Part shown: one piece after another, positions 39,025-48,462 of the stretch | How positions within the stretch are numbered: the first letter of the stretch is position 1 | Layout: each line of letters starts with the position of its first letter | NCBI GenBank assembly: GCA_029263415.1 | Contig: JAJCXN010000046.1 | Span: 62,001-126,000, forward strand | Origin: Acidobacteriota bacterium | GTDB lineage: Bacteria; Acidobacteriota; Thermoanaerobaculia; Multivoradales; Multivoraceae | Length of the DNA stretch: 64,000 nt | Direction: 5' to 3' | Position numbers and translations under genes: made by a program | The notes under the pieces: model-generated | What the model saw: only the letters and a program-made list of their open reading frames with translations | Database searches by the model: none | Told to the model about the DNA's origin: nothing

Positions 39025-41307
39025 CTATCCGTTGGGCGTTTGCTCGACAAGACTCAGTGCGTCGCCACCCTCGATGATCCGATAGTGCTGGTCGAGGACG
39101 GCGCTCGAGAACGACTGAGTGAGGTCGCTGGTCGGCCAGTAGATCTCGAGTTGATCGATGCGACTGGCATTCCCTAGCCCGAGGATCTGCCGCAAAGGGT
39201 TGGAGCCAAAACTACCGCCGCTGTTGACGTGTTTATAGATCGAGCGCCGCTTGCCTTCCTCGGTGACATCTACCCGAATACGCACCCCGATCGCCGAGCG
39301 GTTGGATTTGACTCCAACGAGATCCAGCGTCAGCCATCGATTGCCAAAACCTGGATTCTCATAGAGCGCATCGCTAGCCCGATCGCCAGGGTAAGCGCCG
39401 CCCATCTGAGCGAATAGGTCTTGATCACCATCGTTGTCGAAGTCGGCAAAGGCGATCGAATGGCCCTTCTGCAGGTGACCGAAACCGCCTTCCAAGGTGA
39501 CGTCGGAGAACAGGCTCCCGGCGAGGTTGCGATACATAACGTTGGGAGTCACGGCTTCATAGTCGGGATAGCCGGTGCCGAGGTAAAAATCGAGATACCC
39601 GTCGTTGTCGATGTCACCGAAGTTCGCACCCATCGGTAGCAAGAAGAGATCGAGCCCCACCTTTGAGGCAACATTCTCGAAGCCACCGTTGCCAATCCCT
39701 CGGTACAAGTGCGGCATCTCGAATGGGATCTCCGCTCCAAAATAGCTGGCCGCCACCGCGGCCAAGGCGTCGGTCTCACCCTTGTAGCTCGGAACGTAAA
39801 GATCGAGCTGGCCGTCGTTGTCGTAGTCCCAGAACCACACCGGAAAGCTATCCACCGGCCCGGCGACGCCAAGCTCGGCTGCGACGTCGGTGAAGGTGCC
39901 ATCCCGGTTGTTGCGATAGAGGAGGTTTTTGCCTTGCATGGTCGAAACATACAGATCCGCGAAGCGATCGCCATTGGTATCGCCCCAGATCACACCTTTG
40001 ACGAAACCGCGGTGGTCCACTCCGGCGCTTGCCGCAACATCAGTGAACGTGCCGTCGCCGTTGTTCCTAAACAGCTGACACGGTCCGTCGAAATGCTGCT
40101 CGCCGTCTTCGTTGCCGATGTAGAGATCAACATCGCCGTCGTTGTCATAGTCAGCCCAGGCCGCGGTCTGCGTCGGGTAGTGAGCATCGCCTAGGCCCGC
40201 ATCGAAGGTGACGTCGGTGAAGTGGCCCTCGCCGTCGTTACTGAGCAACGAATTCGGATGACGGCCGCCGCCTGAAAGCCAGGCACCACGCAGAATGAAG
40301 GCGTCGAGATCGCCGTCGTTGTCGTAGTCAGCTTGCACCACATTGAGACCTCCGTAGAGACCGTCGATACCAGCGGATGCGGTTTGGTTCGAGAAGTCAA
40401 GGCCGCCCTCGTTGCGGAAGAACTGGGCTTGGCCTGCTGCGTCAAAAGTGGTGGTCAGAATGTCGAGGTAGCCATCGCCGGTGAAGTCATCAACCACCAC
40501 TCCGCCGAACAGATTCTGAGTAGCCACGCCTAGATCCGGAGCTCGATTGATGAACCGCGGAAAATCCTCGCCCGAGCCGAAGACCTCTTCTGGAATCCGG
40601 TATGGCTCAGGCACCCCGCGTGGGTACTGGCCAAGAGTCATGTAGGCCACGTTGAGCAACCACACCGCCTTCAAACTCACTGGATGATCGTTTGGGGATG
40701 CCGCAAGAACCTGCTCGAAGTAGAGGATCGCGTTTCTTGAACCTTCCTGATCGGTGTGCACGCCCGCGCCTCGAATCGGCAGGATGCAGCTCTCGGCGTT
40801 GTGTTGCACCGCACAGTTCTGGGTCTCTCCGAAGCGCAGCCAAGCGATCCCGGTGCGGAAAATCGCCCTCACCGCCTCCTCTGAAGAGACCGACTCCGCG
40901 AGCTCGGGCATCAGCGCGTAGGCGGCCTCGAAGTGGTCGATCGCCGCGCGCTCTAGGCCTTGCTTGATCTCCTCATTGGCCAGACCCGTGAGCGCGCGCC
41001 AACGCTCGGGCGGTTCTGCTCCTTGCGGTAGTTGGTCGAGCACCTGGCGGGCGAAGCGCAGACCTCGGTCGCCCTGGAACATGTTCTCGTCGGGCGTTCG
41101 TTGACGGATCAGCTCAAGCTCGTGGAGCATGCGCTGGTGACCAGCGGGGCGCTCCTTCGGAACCGCCGCAAGAGACGCCGCAGAAGACGCCGCTGGTTCC
41201 CGGCTCTGCTGGGCCGTGTCTAGCTTCTCGCCCGGCGCACACGCGACAACCAACGCCGCGAGTAGCACTGAACCAAGAACCCGGATGCGGGACCGTTCTA
41301 GCGTCAA
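39025..41307 (-). CDS. FG-GAP/VCBS repeat lipoprotein with ASPIC/UnbV C-terminal domain, copy 2
   Basis: A 760 aa lipoprotein (lipobox VLLAALVVAC). About 220 helical, TPR-like residues come first (LTGLANEEIKQGLERAAIDHFEAAYALMP, partial), then FG-GAP repeats (DFTGDGYLDILT, DYDNDGDLDAFI, DYDNDGDVDLYI, DTNGDRFADLYV, DYDNDGQLDLYV, DIDNDGYLDFYL, DFDNDGDQDLFA) and a C-terminal ASPIC/UnbV domain (NRWLTLDLVGVKSNRSAIGV ... LEIYWPTS). I prefer the TTG at 41307, which has GGAGG 8 nt upstream; a GTG at 41322 would put that ribosome-binding site inside the gene. It converges on the TPR lipoprotein gene. Its TPR-like plus FG-GAP fusion mirrors the two separate genes next door. Confidence 0.88.
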   Translation of the reverse strand: MTLERSRIRVLGSVLLAALVVACAPGEKLDTAQQSREPAASSAASLAAVPKERPAGHQRMLHELELIRQRTPDENMFQGDRGLRFARQVLDQLPQGAEPPERWRALTGLANEEIKQGLERAAIDHFEAAYALMPELAESVSSEEAVRAIFRTGIAWLRFGETQNCAVQHNAESCILPIRGAGVHTDQEGSRNAILYFEQVLAASPNDHPVSLKAVWLLNVAYMTLGQYPRGVPEPYRIPEEVFGSGEDFPRFINRAPDLGVATQNLFGGVVVDDFTGDGYLDILTTTFDAAGQAQFFRNEGGLDFSNQTASAGIDGLYGGLNVVQADYDNDGDLDAFILRGAWLSGGGRHPNSLLSNDGEGHFTDVTFDAGLGDAHYPTQTAAWADYDNDGDVDLYIGNEDGEQHFDGPCQLFRNNGDGTFTDVAASAGVDHRGFVKGVIWGDTNGDRFADLYVSTMQGKNLLYRNNRDGTFTDVAAELGVAGPVDSFPVWFWDYDNDGQLDLYVPSYKGETDALAAVAASYFGAEIPFEMPHLYRGIGNGGFENVASKVGLDLFLLPMGANFGDIDNDGYLDFYLGTGYPDYEAVTPNVMYRNLAGSLFSDVTLEGGFGHLQKGHSIAFADFDNDGDQDLFAQMGGAYPGDRASDALYENPGFGNRWLTLDLVGVKSNRSAIGVRIRVDVTEEGKRRSIYKHVNSGGSFGSNPLRQILGLGNASRIDQLEIYWPTSDLTQSFSSAVLDQHYRIIEGGDALSLVEQTPNG

Positions 41308-41349
41308 CTCTTCAACCTCCACAGCGCGAAGCGCTCTTCGTCCGTGCGA

Positions 41350-42120
41350 CTAGCTCACCGCTACGATACCGCCGTCAACCGCGATGGTGACGCCATTGAC
41401 GTAAGCGCTCGCACGAGATGAAAGATAGATCGCGGTACCCGCCATGTCTTCGGGTGTACCAATCCGACCCCGCGGATTGTGCTTGGCGATGCGCTCACCT
41501 TGTGTCGCCAGCGTGTGGGCCATCATCTTGCTCTCAAACGGTCCAGGAGCAATGGCGTTGACAGTGATGTGTTCTTGCGAGAGCCGTGCGGTCAACGCCC
41601 GGGTCAAATGGATGAGACCGGACTTACTCGCGGCATATGGATAGGTCTCCATCGGATTGACGTGCAGGCCGTCGATCGAAGCAACCATGATCACCCGTGC
41701 CGGATCCTCAGGCGTCGCCGACTTGCGCAAGAGCGGCAGGCACTTCTGGGTCAAGAAGAAAGGCGCCTTGATGTTGATGTTCATCACCTTGTCCCACGCG
41801 TGCTCAGGGAACTCGTCAATCGGCGCCGACCAAACCGCACCGGCGTTGTTGACCAAGACATCAAGCTTCTGTTCGCGCTCGCTCAGCTCTTGCACGAACT
41901 GATTGATGCCCTCTAGCCCTGACAAGTCATGCGGGAACGAGATGCATTCGCCGTGCTCAGAGAGCTCCGCAGCCATTGCATCGCATGCCTCGGCGTTGCG
42001 CGAGGAGATGTACACGCGCATTCCGTTCTCGACGAACCCTCGCGCGATCATGGCGCCAATGCCGCGCGAACCACCGGTAACCACTGCGACTTTTCCTGCC
42101 ACATCAAAGAGACTTTTCAT
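41350..42120 (-). CDS. Short-chain dehydrogenase/reductase (SDR)
   Basis: A 256 aa cytosolic NAD(P)-dependent oxidoreductase of the classical SDR type. The cofactor motif is TGGSRGIG (about 15-22), the NNAG motif is VNNAGAVW, and the catalytic Tyr-x3-Lys is YAASK, with the catalytic Ser in VASIDG. Arg in SSRNAEA after beta2 favours NADP(H). The C-terminus (YVNGVTIAVDGGI) is standard. The ATG at 42120 has GGAG 9 nt upstream. The substrate is unknown; 3-oxoacyl reductase-like or polyol dehydrogenase activity are both possible. Confidence 0.93.
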   Translation of the reverse strand: MKSLFDVAGKVAVVTGGSRGIGAMIARGFVENGMRVYISSRNAEACDAMAAELSEHGECISFPHDLSGLEGINQFVQELSEREQKLDVLVNNAGAVWSAPIDEFPEHAWDKVMNINIKAPFFLTQKCLPLLRKSATPEDPARVIMVASIDGLHVNPMETYPYAASKSGLIHLTRALTARLSQEHITVNAIAPGPFESKMMAHTLATQGERIAKHNPRGRIGTPEDMAGTAIYLSSRASAYVNGVTIAVDGGIVAVS

Positions 42121-42256
42121 CACTGCACGCTCCATTCTCGATTGTCTTCGTTGGAAGGCGCAATGTACCAGGCGTGGTTCGTAGCCGAGCACTGGTCATC
42201 AATTGCAGGCGCAAGGGATCCCCTCGCGCATCGCACAAAGCAATACCATTGCCCAA

Positions 42257-45019
42257 ATGCGTTGTCCTCTCCAACATCTCGCCGCGATCAGCGTGCTCCT
42301 CGCTGTCCTCTTCCCGATCGGGCTAGGAGCCTCTGAGTTGCCCTTGCGAGACATTCACGTCAGAACGCTCTCTGGCACTTCTCCTGCGGACAACGTTCAG
42401 TGGCAGTTCGCACGCGGCGTCTTCGTCACCGCTGCCGAGCAAGCGACCAACATCGAGTGGTCGACCATCACCGTCCCCAGCACCTGGGAACTCGAGGGGC
42501 AAGGCTCCTACAGCTATGGGCGGGGCGCGGATCGCAAGGACCGGGATCGCCTGCGTGAATTGTCCGATGTTGGCACCTATCGGCACGAGTTTGCCCTCAT
42601 CGAGCCGTTCAGGACGCAGCTGGCGCAAAGGGGGCCCGACAGTCGCCGCTTCTTTCTCCGCTTCGACGGTGTTCTAACCGACACTCGTGTCTTCCTCAAC
42701 GGGGAGCTGCTCAAGACTACGAAGGGGCTCAAGGAGCACCGAGGAGGCTTCGTGCCATTCTCCTTCGACGTAACAGACGAGCTCGTCCTCACTGGCCGGA
42801 ACGAGTTGATCGTGTCAGTGCGCGAAGAGTCGTCGGACAAGTCAGTCAATCGAGCAGAGCGGGACGCTGACTACTGGCTCTTCGGTGGGATCTTTAGGCC
42901 GGTTCATCTGTTGTCCGTCCCATCGGTCCACATCGAGAGTGTCGCGGTGGACGCCGCCGCAGATGGACGCTTGAAAGTTGTTGTCTCAATCGATGGTCTA
43001 CCAACCCGCAATGACGTGCCCCACACCGTCTGGCTCAACGTGCACAACCGCAGGGTACCCCGCAGTCTTCTCCGCGCCTCCGCGTCCGTAGATCAGAGCG
43101 GCCAAGCGCGGTTCGATGTTCTAGTTCCGAATCCGCGCCAATGGTCTGCTGCACGACCCAATCTGTATGACCTCGTGATCGCAGTCTTGCGTGACGACGA
43201 CTGGCCAGCACTTCATACCACGGCAGTTCCCATCGGCTTCCGCACTTTGCAAGTGCGCACCGCCCCCACCCACCAAACCGCCCGGGACGCCACCGCGACC
43301 GGCCTGTTGGTCAACGGTGAACGCGTGATCTTGCGCGGCGTCAACCGTCACTCATTCCGGCCCGAGACCGGCCGCGCCCTGTCGCCCGAACAGAATCGGC
43401 GCGACGTGGAACTGATCAAGAGTCTCGGCTTCAACGCAGTGCGCAGTTCACACTACCCACCTGATGAAGCGTTTCTCGACGCCTGCGACGAACTCGGCCT
43501 CTACGTCATCGACGAACTGCCCGGGTGGCACGACGCCTACGACACCATTGTGGGTGAAAGCATCCTACGTTCAATGCTTGAGCGCGATCGCAACCACCCT
43601 TCGATCCTGATGTGGGCCAATGGCAACGAAGGCGGTTGGAACCGTGCTCTAGAACCGATCTACAAAGAACTCGACCTTCAACAACGCCCAGTGCTGCGTC
43701 CGGACAGCATTCACGGTGGTTTTGACACTCGGCATTACCCCACCTGGGCTGAGATCGAGACCATGCTCGATCCCAAGAGCCCGCGATATCGCTTCCAGAC
43801 TCCGTTGACGCCGGCGCCGCTCATCCTGCCCACCGAAATGCTGCACGCTCTGTATGACGGCGGTGGCGCCGCTGGGCTCGAGCAGTACTGGCGACGACTG
43901 TCTGAATCGCCTCGGTTCGCTGGCGGATTTCTCTGGGCCTTGCTCGACGAAGGTGTGGTTCGCGTTGATCAACCGAAGGTCACTCAAGCGGACGGTAGCC
44001 TTCGACACCCGATCGATACTGCCGGCAACTACGCTCCCGACGGCATCGTTGGTCCCTACCGCGAGCCAAGCGCAAGCTCCCGCGGAGTCCGGCAGCTCTT
44101 CGGACCCCAGAGCACCACCCGCGCGACCAGAAGCCTTGAGCGTGAGCCATGGTTCCCTGACCGAGTGAACCTGCCAGGGGAGATCGGCCTAGCAACGACC
44201 GGAACGATCGACGACGGCACCGTAACTCTCACCCGCGGAGGGGAAGCCAACCTTGCGATCACCTTCGCTAGAAATGCCGCCGGAGTGATCAGGCTCCATG
44301 CGGGCGAACGACAGCTGCCGCTCACCGGAGGGCGATGGCTGTCCTCCGATGCCAACCGCGACCGCCCTCCGCGATTGGCCGGCGAAGAACTCGGCGAAGT
44401 CCACGACCCAGATCTTTCCGGCGAAACTGCGACCTACACTCAACACTTTGAAAACCCGAAGCACACCATCCGCTGGACACTCAGTCAGCAGGGCCTCGAA
44501 ATCGAGGTTTCAGCCGAACTTCTCCCACATCAAGCGTGGGCTGGCCTCCAGTTCGATCTGGACCCGCAACAGGTCGATGCCTTCGAGTGGTCGGGGCTCG
44601 GTCCCGACCGCATCTGGCGCAACAGAACAACCGGCCAAGAGGGCCTGTGGCAGGCTACCTTTCCAAAATCCGAGTCTGCCCGCGGCGCCGTGCGCTCCCT
44701 TACCTCAAGCACGCTCTTCAACGGACTCGACACACGAGGTCTCTACAAGACCCACCAAAGCCGGATCCAACTAGCCAGCAACCAGGCGAAGGTGAGCCAC
44801 ACGATCGAGCTCGGACCCGGAATGGTCGGACTGTTTCGACCTGTATTCCCAGTAGACGCAGGACTCGCCAGTGCAGCGCTACCACCGGGACTGACCATCT
44901 ATCTACGCGCACCTGGCATCGGCACCAAATTCTCCACCGCAGAGGAGCTTGAACCCACGCTCTCGAACGTAGAAGGAACCCTGAAGACTACTCTGCAGTT
45001 TCGAACCCACGAGCCATAA
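42257..45019 (+). CDS. Secreted glycoside hydrolase family 2 (beta-galactosidase-like)
   Basis: A 920 aa exported glycosidase. After a signal peptide (HLAAISVLLAVLFPIGLGA) come a jelly-roll sugar-binding domain (about 30-210: VPSTWELEGQGSYSY, LRFDGVLTDTRVFLNGE), an Ig-like domain, and a TIM barrel (about 330-590) with the GH2 block LRGVNRHSFRPETG ... GFNAVRSSHYPPDEAFLDACDELGLYVIDE. The acid/base Glu is in MWANGNEGGW, and the nucleophile is probably the Glu in LPTEMLHAL. The C-terminal 300 residues are beta-sandwich-like. The 42257 ATG begins at the signal peptide. The selenoprotein gene follows after 56 nt on the same strand. Confidence 0.92.
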   Translation: MRCPLQHLAAISVLLAVLFPIGLGASELPLRDIHVRTLSGTSPADNVQWQFARGVFVTAAEQATNIEWSTITVPSTWELEGQGSYSYGRGADRKDRDRLRELSDVGTYRHEFALIEPFRTQLAQRGPDSRRFFLRFDGVLTDTRVFLNGELLKTTKGLKEHRGGFVPFSFDVTDELVLTGRNELIVSVREESSDKSVNRAERDADYWLFGGIFRPVHLLSVPSVHIESVAVDAAADGRLKVVVSIDGLPTRNDVPHTVWLNVHNRRVPRSLLRASASVDQSGQARFDVLVPNPRQWSAARPNLYDLVIAVLRDDDWPALHTTAVPIGFRTLQVRTAPTHQTARDATATGLLVNGERVILRGVNRHSFRPETGRALSPEQNRRDVELIKSLGFNAVRSSHYPPDEAFLDACDELGLYVIDELPGWHDAYDTIVGESILRSMLERDRNHPSILMWANGNEGGWNRALEPIYKELDLQQRPVLRPDSIHGGFDTRHYPTWAEIETMLDPKSPRYRFQTPLTPAPLILPTEMLHALYDGGGAAGLEQYWRRLSESPRFAGGFLWALLDEGVVRVDQPKVTQADGSLRHPIDTAGNYAPDGIVGPYREPSASSRGVRQLFGPQSTTRATRSLEREPWFPDRVNLPGEIGLATTGTIDDGTVTLTRGGEANLAITFARNAAGVIRLHAGERQLPLTGGRWLSSDANRDRPPRLAGEELGEVHDPDLSGETATYTQHFENPKHTIRWTLSQQGLEIEVSAELLPHQAWAGLQFDLDPQQVDAFEWSGLGPDRIWRNRTTGQEGLWQATFPKSESARGAVRSLTSSTLFNGLDTRGLYKTHQSRIQLASNQAKVSHTIELGPGMVGLFRPVFPVDAGLASAALPPGLTIYLRAPGIGTKFSTAEELEPTLSNVEGTLKTTLQFRTHEP

Positions 45020-45075: not shown

Positions 45076-46503
45076 ATGATCCACGACCGAAGCTCGAACC
45101 AATCCTTAGTCGCCGTGGTTCTGTGCCTCGTCAGCATTCTCTTGTGCGCCTCCACTGGTAGCGCTCTGCGCCTGGAGCAACGACCGATGGAACTCAAAGT
45201 CGGCCAGCCGTTCCCCACGCTACGCCTGCCCACCCTCGACGGCGGCTTCAAATCGATCGCAGATTTCCGCGGCAAGAAGGTGATCCTCCACGTCTTCGCC
45301 TCATGGTGAGCAGGCTGCCGAGTTCACGTGCCCGGGTGGCATGCAGCAACCAAGGAGCTTCAAGACTCCGGCAAGCTCGAGATGATCGGCATCATCCAAG
45401 AGCAGAATCCGGAGCGCGCACGTCTGTTCATGCAATGGCAGCAGATGGAGTGGCCAATCATGGTCGACACTTTCGATCTGCTCGAAGTCAGCGTGGTGCC
45501 GCTCACCTACGCGATCGACGAGCGCGGCATCGTGCGCTTTGCAGGCTTGCGCACCAACGCCGCAGCCACCATTGAGCACGACTTCGTCTCGGCGCATTGG
45601 CCCGCTCCAAACGCCCCCACAGTTGGTCCCAGTCAAACGTCCGAAGCGGCACTTGCAACCGCCGCACTCGGTGATCGCTCAGCCTTAGAGCGCGCAATGA
45701 CCACCTACACCGAACGGATCAATACCGAGAGCGACGACGGCTGGGCTCACTTCCGGCTTGCTGCCGCTCACCGCCTACGCTACGACTCAGACGATCGCCA
45801 GCCGGGCGACTTCCAAGAAGCCATCAACCACTGGCGGCGCGCACTCGAGATCGATCCGAACAACTACATCTGGCGACGTCGCATTCAGCAGTACGGTCCG
45901 CGGCTCGCGAAGCCCTATCCCTTCTACGATTGGATCGAGAAAGCGCAAGCAGAGATCCGCGTTCGCGGCGAAGAGCCAGTCCCTCTCACGGTGGAGCCGA
46001 CCGAGGCGGAGATCGCTCAGCCTGAGGGCCAAGGTAACGACAGCACCGCGACCGACAAGCCGCATGAACGGCCGATGCCCTCTTCGCGAATCATCGCGGA
46101 CGGCCTCGGCGAGGCGACGGGTCGCCTCATTCAGATCGAGCAAACCGCCGTTCCCAGACGGCTAGGCGTCGGCGAGACCTCCCGCGTCCATCTTGTATTC
46201 AGGCCCAATCAAGACAAGCTGGCTCATTGGAACAATGAGTCAGAACCTCTGAGACTTTGGATCGAACTCCCTGAAGGATGGCGAGCATCCAGTCTCTTTC
46301 TCGAGACCCCAAATCCGGCAGACACGGCGGTCAGCACTGAGACTCGCGCTGTGGAGTTCGAAATCCAGGCTCCAGACTCGATGATCCCGGGTGAGTCGCG
46401 GCCGAAGGTAATCGCGCTGTACTACGTCTGCGAAGACGAGAACGGCACCTGCTTGTTCCGGCGCCAAGACATCCACTTAGACTTCGAACTCCGACAAGAC
46501 TGA
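45076..46503 (+). CDS. Selenocysteine-containing thioredoxin-fold (TlpA/redoxin-like) secreted protein
   Basis: A 475 aa protein if the in-frame TGA at 45307-45309 is read as selenocysteine (Sec78). Residues 1-30 are a signal peptide (SLVAVVLCLVSILLCASTGSA). Residues 38-160 form a redoxin domain: LKVGQPFPTLRLPTLDGG, then KVILHVFASW-U-AGCR, where Sec78 and Cys81 make a UxxC in place of the CxxC of TlpA-like proteins, then GIIQEQNPERARLFMQW and VSVVPLTYAIDERGIVRF, which carries the cis-Pro block. Helical TPR-like sequence (about 195-285) and a beta-rich C-terminal domain with Cys452 and Cys459 follow. The same frame runs on both sides of the TGA with family-like sequence, so neither a pseudogene nor two separate genes is likely. 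Probable periplasmic thiol:disulfide oxidoreductase. It lies 56 nt after the GH2 gene. Confidence 0.87.
45307..45309 (+). other. In-frame TGA predicted to encode selenocysteine (Sec78)
   Basis: The codon string around it reads GCC TCA TGG TGA GCA GGC, i.e. A-S-W-U-A-G, followed by TGC CGA (C-R). The TGA takes the place of the first, nucleophilic cysteine of a thioredoxin-type WCxxC motif. Confidence 0.87.
45310..45344 (+). promoter_or_regulatory. Candidate bacterial SECIS hairpin after the TGA codon
   Basis: By hand pairing, 45316-45320 (TGCCG) pairs with 45337-45341 (TGGCA), and 45323-45325 (TTC) pairs with 45334-45336 (GGG) using two G-U pairs. This leaves an eight-base loop ACGTGCCC at 45326-45333. 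Further outer pairs form with 45343-45344. The loop begins 16 nt after the TGA and has GU near its 5' side, as expected for a SelB-binding SECIS. This is unfolded by software, so the structure is tentative. Confidence 0.5.
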
Positions 46504-46881: not shown

Positions 46882-47211
46882 ATGCGGTACATGGCACTCA
46901 TCTACAACACTGAAGACGGAGAGCCGAACCCTGAGGTCTTTGAGGCCTACGGCGCTTTCACCCAGGAGATGGTGGCAAAGGGCATCTTCGTGTCCGGCGA
47001 CGCGCTCCAGGACTCTCACACCGCGACATGTGTCTCGGTGCGCAACGGCAAAACTAACCTCAAGGATGGGCCGTTCGCTGAGACAAAGGAACAGCTTGGC
47101 GGCTACTACATCCTCGAGTGCGCCAACCTCGATGAGGCGATCGAGTGCGCCGCCAAGATCCCTGGTGCGGCCAACGGCACGATCGAGGTTCGTCCGGTTC
47201 TTGCGCTCTAG
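46882..47211 (+). CDS. YCII-related (DGPF) protein
   Basis: A 109 aa cytosolic protein with the DGPF motif at 62-65 (LKDGPFAETKEQLGGYYILE) and the typical start MRYMALIYNTED. It belongs to the YCII/DGPF family, which regularly sits beside ECF42 sigma factors, as here: the sigma gene starts 3 nt after its stop. The ATG has AGGAGA 8 nt upstream. The biochemical role is unknown; a link to the sigma factor's regulation or target response is inferred from gene pairing. Confidence 0.92.
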   Translation: MRYMALIYNTEDGEPNPEVFEAYGAFTQEMVAKGIFVSGDALQDSHTATCVSVRNGKTNLKDGPFAETKEQLGGYYILECANLDEAIECAAKIPGAANGTIEVRPVLAL

Positions 47212-47214
47212 CAG

Positions 47215-48462
47215 ATGACGCGGTTCGGCGCTCCTGACGAGGTCCTCGCTCACATCTATCGTAAAGATGCGAGCGGGGTCTTGTCGGTGTTGATCTCGCA
47301 ACTGCGAGATTTTGATCTGGCTGAAGACGCTCTTCATGATGCGATCGCGCAAGCGGTGGTCGCTTGGCGACGCACCGGCCCTCCGCGCAACGGCGCAGCC
47401 TGGCTGCTCACAGCGGCTAGGCGTAGGGCGATCGACCGCATTCGCAAATCGTCACGAGCGCGCGACGACGCTACACAACGCTTGCTGCTCGCTCAGCTTG
47501 AGAACCAGTCGCAGGCGAACGAAGAGGATCAGCCGATCCCTGACGAGCGATTGCGCTTGATCTTCACTTGCTGTCATCCCGCCTTGAGCCAGGAAGCGCG
47601 AGTGGCGCTGACCCTGCGCACCTTGTGTGGCCTCTCGACCCAGGAGATCGCCAGGGCCTATCTGGTCTCAGACGCCACCATGAGCCAACGGATTGTGCGC
47701 GCTAAAGCCAAAATCCGGGATGCAGCGATCCCGTACGAGGTCCCGGAGGGGCCAGCGCAGGCTGAACGTCTGAGTTCGGTGCTCGATGTGATCTACCTGA
47801 TCTTCAATGAGGGCTTCGCGGCCACCGAAGGCGAAAGCCCCACACGTGCCGACCTTTGCATCGAGGCCATTCGTCTGGGTCGACTGCTCTACCAACTCAA
47901 GCCGCATCCTGAGTCGGGTGGGCTACTGGCTCTGATGATGTTGCACGATGCCCGCCGTGGCGCCCGGACCGATTCGTTCAACGAGTACATTCCTATCAGT
48001 GAGCAAGATCGATCTCTGTGGAACCAGGAACTGATCGCCCAAGGTACCCAGCTGCTCCATTTCTGCCTTGGTCAAAAACGCCCGGCGCCCTTTCAGATAC
48101 AAGCAGCGATCAGCGCCGTGCACTCAGAAGCCGCACACGCTGAAGACACTGATTGGCCTCAAATCGCTGGCCTCTATCGAGCTCTCGAGGAGGCAACACC
48201 TTCGCCTGTAGTCACGCTTAACCGCGCCGTAGCGGTAGCTCACGCGCACGGCACTGCAAAGGGCCTCGCGCTGCTTGAGACTGTCGCTCAAGATCTTGAT
48301 GGATACCAGCCGTTCTACGCGGCGCAAGCTGAGCTACTGCGACGATCAGGCCAGTTGTCAGAAGCGGCGACGGCCTACACGCGTGCGATCGATCTCTCCA
48401 CCAACACCGCCGAGCGCACCTTCTTGATCAAGAAACGCTCCGAGATCACCGCGCAAGCTTAG
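47215..48462 (+). CDS. ECF42-type RNA polymerase sigma factor with C-terminal helical extension
   Basis: A 415 aa regulator, about twice the size of an ordinary ECF sigma factor. Region 2 (DFDLAEDALHDAIAQAVVAW, TAARRRAIDRIRKSS) and region 4 (LRTLCGLSTQEIARAYLVSDATMSQRIVRAKAKI, quoted in two parts) fill the first 185 residues. The rest is the long extension of this class (EGFAATEGESPTRADLCIEAIRLGR, TPSPVVTLNRAVAVAHAHG), which ends in TPR-like helices and replaces a separate anti-sigma factor. It lies 3 nt after the YCII gene. Its last 17 nt overlap the convergent ankyrin gene. Confidence 0.93.
   Translation: MTRFGAPDEVLAHIYRKDASGVLSVLISQLRDFDLAEDALHDAIAQAVVAWRRTGPPRNGAAWLLTAARRRAIDRIRKSSRARDDATQRLLLAQLENQSQANEEDQPIPDERLRLIFTCCHPALSQEARVALTLRTLCGLSTQEIARAYLVSDATMSQRIVRAKAKIRDAAIPYEVPEGPAQAERLSSVLDVIYLIFNEGFAATEGESPTRADLCIEAIRLGRLLYQLKPHPESGGLLALMMLHDARRGARTDSFNEYIPISEQDRSLWNQELIAQGTQLLHFCLGQKRPAPFQIQAAISAVHSEAAHAEDTDWPQIAGLYRALEEATPSPVVTLNRAVAVAHAHGTAKGLALLETVAQDLDGYQPFYAAQAELLRRSGQLSEAATAYTRAIDLSTNTAERTFLIKKRSEITAQA

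Follow-up and report, generated by a model that had tools for sequence, protein, structure and literature searches.

The locus described here raises the question of whether an in-frame TGA in an acidobacterial redoxin gene stops translation or specifies selenocysteine (Sec). The gene lies on the forward strand of a window of 64,000 nucleotides (the whole stretch of DNA that was analysed) from a member of the Thermoanaerobaculia. Its frame ends at a TGA (46501-46503) and contains a single internal one, which corresponds to residue 78 in the context HVFASW-U-AGCRVHVPGWH (Table 1). Standard ORF calling returned two ORFs, 45076-45309 (77 aa) and 45328-46503 (391 aa, with a GTG start located 7 codons 3' of the TGA), which is the split into a 77-aa stub and a remainder that the initial annotation of this DNA had predicted. 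That annotation had also placed the single TGA at the first-Cys position of a redoxin domain (ASW-U-A-G-C-R), and Pfam agreed, since its AhpC-TSA match covers residues 42-155 and spans the codon. When the whole window was scanned mechanically for in-frame TGA codons that have long flanking stretches and lie close to redox-like letters, 26 places were obtained; homology across the codon was examined at 45307-45309 only, and was found there.

Table 1. Features of the predicted selenoprotein gene (positions in the window).
Feature	Position	Strand	Remarks
Predicted selenoprotein gene, whole	45076..46503	+	475 codons + stop, internal UGA read as Sec; 8 further genomes have full-length orthologues (42-58% identity)
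Hydrophobic N-terminus, probable signal peptide	45076..45168	+	Maximum Kyte-Doolittle value 3.2 over 15 residues; export inferred
TlpA/ResA-like redoxin domain, residues 39-172	45190..45591	+	AhpC-TSA, E 2e-12; fold match
Predicted Sec codon U78, motif W-U-A-G-C-R	45307..45309	+	TGA in 24/24 orthologues; Cys in distant TlpA relatives
Cys81, second residue of the UxxC active site	45316..45318	+	Invariant
Predicted SECIS hairpin	45327..45343	+	Loop CGGGU between the paired segments 45327-45332 and 45338-45343 (6 bp); distance from UGA 23 nt
Probable cis-proline P142 (VVPLT)	45499..45501	+	Invariant; cis geometry inferred from position
Helical TPR-like region, residues 189-296	45640..45963	+	TPR_11, E 1e-6; helices in model
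C-terminal Ig-like beta-sandwich, residues 343-475	46102..46500	+	pLDDT 91.3; generic Ig-like matches, Z about 8-10
Cys452 and Cys459, C-X6-C pair (YYVCEDENGTC)	46429..46452	+	Facing ends of two adjacent strands (model)

Conservation of the in-frame TGA

In a search of 99 genomes, a full-length homologue (51-59% identity over the matched part) was present in six apart from the source genome, and each of these homologues carried exactly one TGA. The gene was present in 7 of 149 genomes of the class, and a match was obtained in 19 of 396 genomes drawn from the phylum, the source genome being included in both counts. Scanning genome contigs added homologues from one Anaerolineae MAG and one Verrucomicrobiia MAG, which are the only hosts of orthologues outside Acidobacteriota. 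Wherever an orthologue spans the codon, TGA stands at the same place (24 of 24 distinct sequences, from three phyla). The two matches without TGA fall short of it, one (L096) ending with its locus and the other (L097) being aligned from residue 283. When the codons of the orthologues were compared, amino acids were kept and synonymous change was abundant on both flanks of the TGA. The alignment of homologues proposed in the initial annotation separated close homologues, with TGA, from distant TlpA-like proteins (about 26-37% identity), with Cys in the same column. No Cys orthologue was found in this sample of a few hundred genomes, and plasmids and viral contigs yielded no relatives at the thresholds used. 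One orthologue (L095 / L098, G453:C63:1151-2433) has a frame change near residue 363, which could be due to a sequencing error or to a decaying copy.

This distribution bears directly on the simplest explanation of the interrupted frame, namely that a Cys or Trp codon has been turned into a stop, either in a pseudogene or through a sequencing or assembly error. Decay would indeed look like a split ORF, and the assemblies are draft-level (60 contigs for the source genome). Against this, the TGA recurs in the 24 orthologues, which come from different genomes, and the protein is conserved on both sides; this rules out a nonsense mutation, and the codons of the hairpin described below are kept beyond the needs of the protein. 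We thus give this explanation practically no chance. The earlier argument that a random stop would hardly fall on this very codon can be put more strongly, the pattern seen in the orthologues being far beyond chance.

Hairpin downstream of the UGA and Sec machinery

A search for a SECIS element, also suggested in the initial annotation, brought up a hairpin with a 5-nt loop that covers positions 21-37, the T of the TGA being number 1. The bSECIS model has a loop of 3-9 nt with a G among its first two nucleotides, a stem of 4-16 bp, a distance of 16-37 nt from the UGA and an energy of -7.5 kcal/mol or lower (PMC13188914). The hairpin agrees with this published model (6 bp, G second in CGGGU, 23 nt, -7.8 kcal/mol). 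Across the orthologues its pairing is kept in 99.3% of cells, and the loop variants (CGUUU, CGUGU, AGUCU, AGGUU) all retain G as the second base and have G or U as the third.

Covariation among the orthologues alone amounted to one double change, in the Anaerolineae sequence (L053), and two pairs had double changes once three WAxxUGC-type sequences were added. None of 500 shuffles reached the covariation score of the hairpin, a result that is not a probability because the sequences are related. Conservation at the codon level is the stronger evidence. For identical residues, the synonymous difference was 0.164 in codons +6 to +11 vs 0.539 gene-wide, and the lowest two of the 360 codon windows were those starting at +7 and +6. 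The Pro codon at +8 is CCC in 22 of the 24 orthologues and CCA in the other two; elsewhere in these genes, Pro is encoded by CCG (340), CCC (299), CCT (92) and CCA (67). These comparisons indicate that the SECIS-like hairpin is under selection at the RNA level. The signal emerges in comparison only: in the single sequence, the folding energy of the UGA region and hairpin (-7.8 kcal/mol) was no different from that of shuffles.

The source genome contains all four genes in which the initial annotation had proposed to seek the Sec machinery, selA (458 bits), selB (329 bits), selC (a tRNA-Sec of 71 bits, anticodon TCA according to ARAGORN) and selD (249 bits, joined match). The selD match (G000:C23:163515-164576) lies in an open frame of 833 codons, the selD model having 311 positions, and this length suggests a fusion with another domain. 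In the genomes carrying homologues, SelB was above the cut-off in 8 of the 8 tested first and then in 15 of 17 further ones, and ARAGORN confirmed tRNA-Sec in 9 of 10 tested. One incomplete genome (G222, 75% complete) had a tRNA-Sec, only fragmentary selA matches and no selB above the cut-off. In another (G249, 95% complete, 260 contigs), selA was found with 523 bits on the contig carrying the orthologue; neither selB above the cut-off nor a true tRNA-Sec was found, the best tRNA-Sec hit being a tRNA-Ser. We read the missing components as assembly gaps, less firmly in the case of G249. On the contig of the latter (G249:C22), selA (182-1612) lies about 3 kb from the orthologue L087 (4661-6013).

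UGA read-through occurs in bacteria, and a GTG follows 7 codons on. The codon might accordingly be read through or reassigned without Sec (as Trp under table 4, or by near-cognate decoding), or the locus might make two products, the 77-aa stub and a protein starting at GTG 45328. Reassignment is contradicted by the window gene and several orthologues, which terminate with TGA, so that TGA is a stop in the host genomes; reassignment to Trp in particular sits badly with a column that is Cys, not Trp, in the relatives. Read-through without Sec is hard to reconcile with the full Sec machinery, and the protein starting at 45328 would be without the motif and half of the fold. TGA used as a stop, together with the Sec machinery, rules out code reassignment, and we attribute very little probability to this group of explanations as a whole.

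The shared TGA, the Sec machinery, the SECIS-like hairpin and the paralogues presented below strongly support the selenoprotein reading of the initial annotation. It appears almost certain from these sequence comparisons that the gene would encode a selenoprotein, and very likely that this selenoprotein would have the redox role of a TlpA/ResA-like domain. A ribosome reaching the UGA would meet the hairpin bound to SelB with Sec-tRNA, and Sec would be inserted.

Domain organization and predicted activity

The helical and C-terminal domains announced in the initial annotation were recovered and could be refined into a TPR-like region and an Ig-like beta-sandwich with a CX6C pair. TPR models of Pfam matched around residues 242-263, and the stretch IWRRRIQQYGPRL, in the TPR-like region, is nearly invariant. 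No Pfam model was above the cut-off for the C-terminal domain; modelled alone, it had its best Ig-like match with a Z of 10.4 (108 aligned, rmsd 2.6). The C452/C459 pair is kept in every orthologue whose frame extends that far. The full-length AlphaFold2 model was of moderate quality (pLDDT 66.6), with values below 50 at residues 75-88, which include the active site. Most orthologues have a hydrophobic N-terminus according to Kyte-Doolittle values only, and the product would probably be exported to the periplasm. The Anaerolineae orthologue (L053:3959-5326) is without a hydrophobic N-terminus, being perhaps not exported or having a misjudged start.

The predicted fold of the N-terminal domain matched ResA/TlpA-type thiol-disulfide oxidoreductases with Z up to 13.0 (131 aligned, rmsd 2.5), and the protein also matched PF08534 Redoxin (E 2e-8). 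The AhpC-TSA/Redoxin fold, the [C/U]xxC motif and the probable cis-Pro together place the domain in the TlpA/ResA-like superfamily. It shares with TlpA, ResA and CcmG(DsbE) the thioredoxin-like fold, the active site after a Trp, the probable cis-Pro and probable export, and differs from them by UxxC in place of CxxC and by the added TPR-like and Ig-like domains.

A selenoprotein of this type could also be a peroxidase, similar to peroxiredoxins. AhpC-TSA is the best Pfam family, the peroxiredoxins AhpE and Bcp are among the structural matches (Z about 11), and the UxxC selenoproteins of PF00578 are named "Prx-like thiol:disulfide oxidoreductase" in Table 1 of PMC13188914. We nevertheless consider a peroxidase rather unlikely: the UxxC after W, with a probable cis-Pro, is TlpA/ResA-like, the protein is without a TxxU peroxidatic motif, and the top structural matches are thiol-disulfide oxidoreductases, though only about 2 Z units above the peroxiredoxins. 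Among the redox enzymes that could be considered, peroxidases included, the fold and motif make us lean towards a thiol-disulfide oxidoreductase. In such an oxidoreductase, the U78 selenolate would attack the disulfide of a substrate and C81 would resolve the mixed selenenylsulfide. The mature arrangement would follow a signal peptide with the Sec-x-x-Cys thioredoxin-fold domain, the TPR-like region and the Ig-like CX6C domain. More speculatively, the CX6C pair might donate electrons to U78-C81 or accept them from it, either inside one molecule or from one molecule to another, an internal relay that we regard as doubtful.

The N-terminal domain of DsbD (nDsbD) has an Ig-like fold and two paired Cys residues close to a strand turn, features that recur in the C-terminal domain of the window protein and provided a lead. 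No nDsbD-type sequence match for this domain was found in Pfam or PDB. Structural matches were generic Ig-like ones only, and nDsbD was absent among the matches listed, which does not exclude it.

Relationship to known families and genomic context

UxxC selenoproteins with a thioredoxin-like redoxin fold are well known from the catalogue in Table 1 of PMC13188914 and from PMC2398784. Among curated families, NF041054 (WAxxUGC_long, ResA-like WAxxUGC motif protein) comes closest, and the window protein would be a sister of it. In both, a ResA/TlpA-like domain carries the Sec at an equivalent position, the UGA is followed by the same hairpin on its 3' side, and the TPR-like region is partly in common, but the active site is U-A-G-C here and U-G-C there: the window family, with [FW]ASWUAGC, has one more residue between U and C and does not fit the WAxxUGC motif. 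The window protein scored 75.1 bits against NF041054, far short of the cut-off of 300. In the tree, the UAGC family formed a single clade (98/99), and this family and the UGC proteins were separated from the Cys relatives with moderate support (88/90), the tree having long branches and midpoint rooting. Judging by motif, NF041054 is probably the group of "UGC-containing TlpA/Prx-like" selenoproteins described in PMC13188914 and PMC2398784.

The source genome itself encodes an NF041054 protein with one in-frame TGA (452 bits), to which the window protein is 25% identical through the TPR-like region. This protein is one of two TlpA-like paralogues with an in-frame TGA observed there, L056 (G000:C39:3610-4701, WAPY-U-GC) and L057 (G000:C36:22564-23535, WASW-U-GC), both with a hairpin CCUGCC-CG[GU]GU-GGCAGG after the UGA. 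L057 is divergent from NF041054, which it matches in two pieces (188.6 and 70.7 bits), and may represent a further subfamily. The C-terminal Ig-like CX6C domain of the window protein is missing from the paralogues of its own genome.

The window family might still belong to an already published UxxC family, the candidates being "Redoxin family protein" (PF08534 UxxC, an entry of Table 1 of PMC13188914), "Prx-like 3" and cd02966 "thiol-disulfide isomerase-like". The catalogue entries, including those of PF00578 and PF08534, are alike in fold family and UxxC motif as far as their descriptions go, and the Redoxin match mentioned above points the same way. On the other hand, none of the matching NCBIfam models reached its cut-off with the window family, and the combination of TPR and Ig-like CX6C domains is not described in the accessible parts of the literature on these families. 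Such an identity seems to us possible, if somewhat unlikely. From these models and descriptions, we tentatively read the family as a new TlpA-like UxxC subfamily. A search of the accessible literature found no publication on NF041054/WAxxUGC or on selenocysteine in Thermoanaerobaculia. Since standard annotation splits the gene and drops the catalytic residue, most annotations of acidobacterial genomes probably miss the family.

With its unusual three-part architecture, the subfamily would extend the set of redox proteins that depend on Sec in Thermoanaerobaculia and in other Acidobacteriota. The orthologue alignment could serve to build a curated model. The apparent lack of Cys orthologues, if it holds, would make the family a good case in which to ask why Sec is retained. 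The most far-reaching reading combines an uncatalogued family, Sec without detectable Cys replacement in 24 orthologues, and an Ig-like CX6C domain acting as a built-in partner of UxxC in a one-protein periplasmic relay; as a whole, we judge it improbable.

The genomic context offered no conserved neighbour or operon at the loci inspected, and no neighbour points to a substrate. The genes nearby vary by locus and include a GH2 enzyme, an AAA ATPase, a biotin carboxylase, TonB-C, a sigma-54 regulator, a CHAT protein and Lgt. In the window, an FG-GAP/UnbV_ASPIC protein, a short-chain dehydrogenase and a GH2 glycosidase (39025-45016) lie upstream of the selenoprotein gene, the GH2 gene ending 56 bases before it on the same strand, an arrangement not seen beside the orthologues inspected. 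Further on, a YCII-domain protein adjoins a sigma factor with DUF6596 (46882-48459), a pairing that we take to be typical of ECF42-type regulation.
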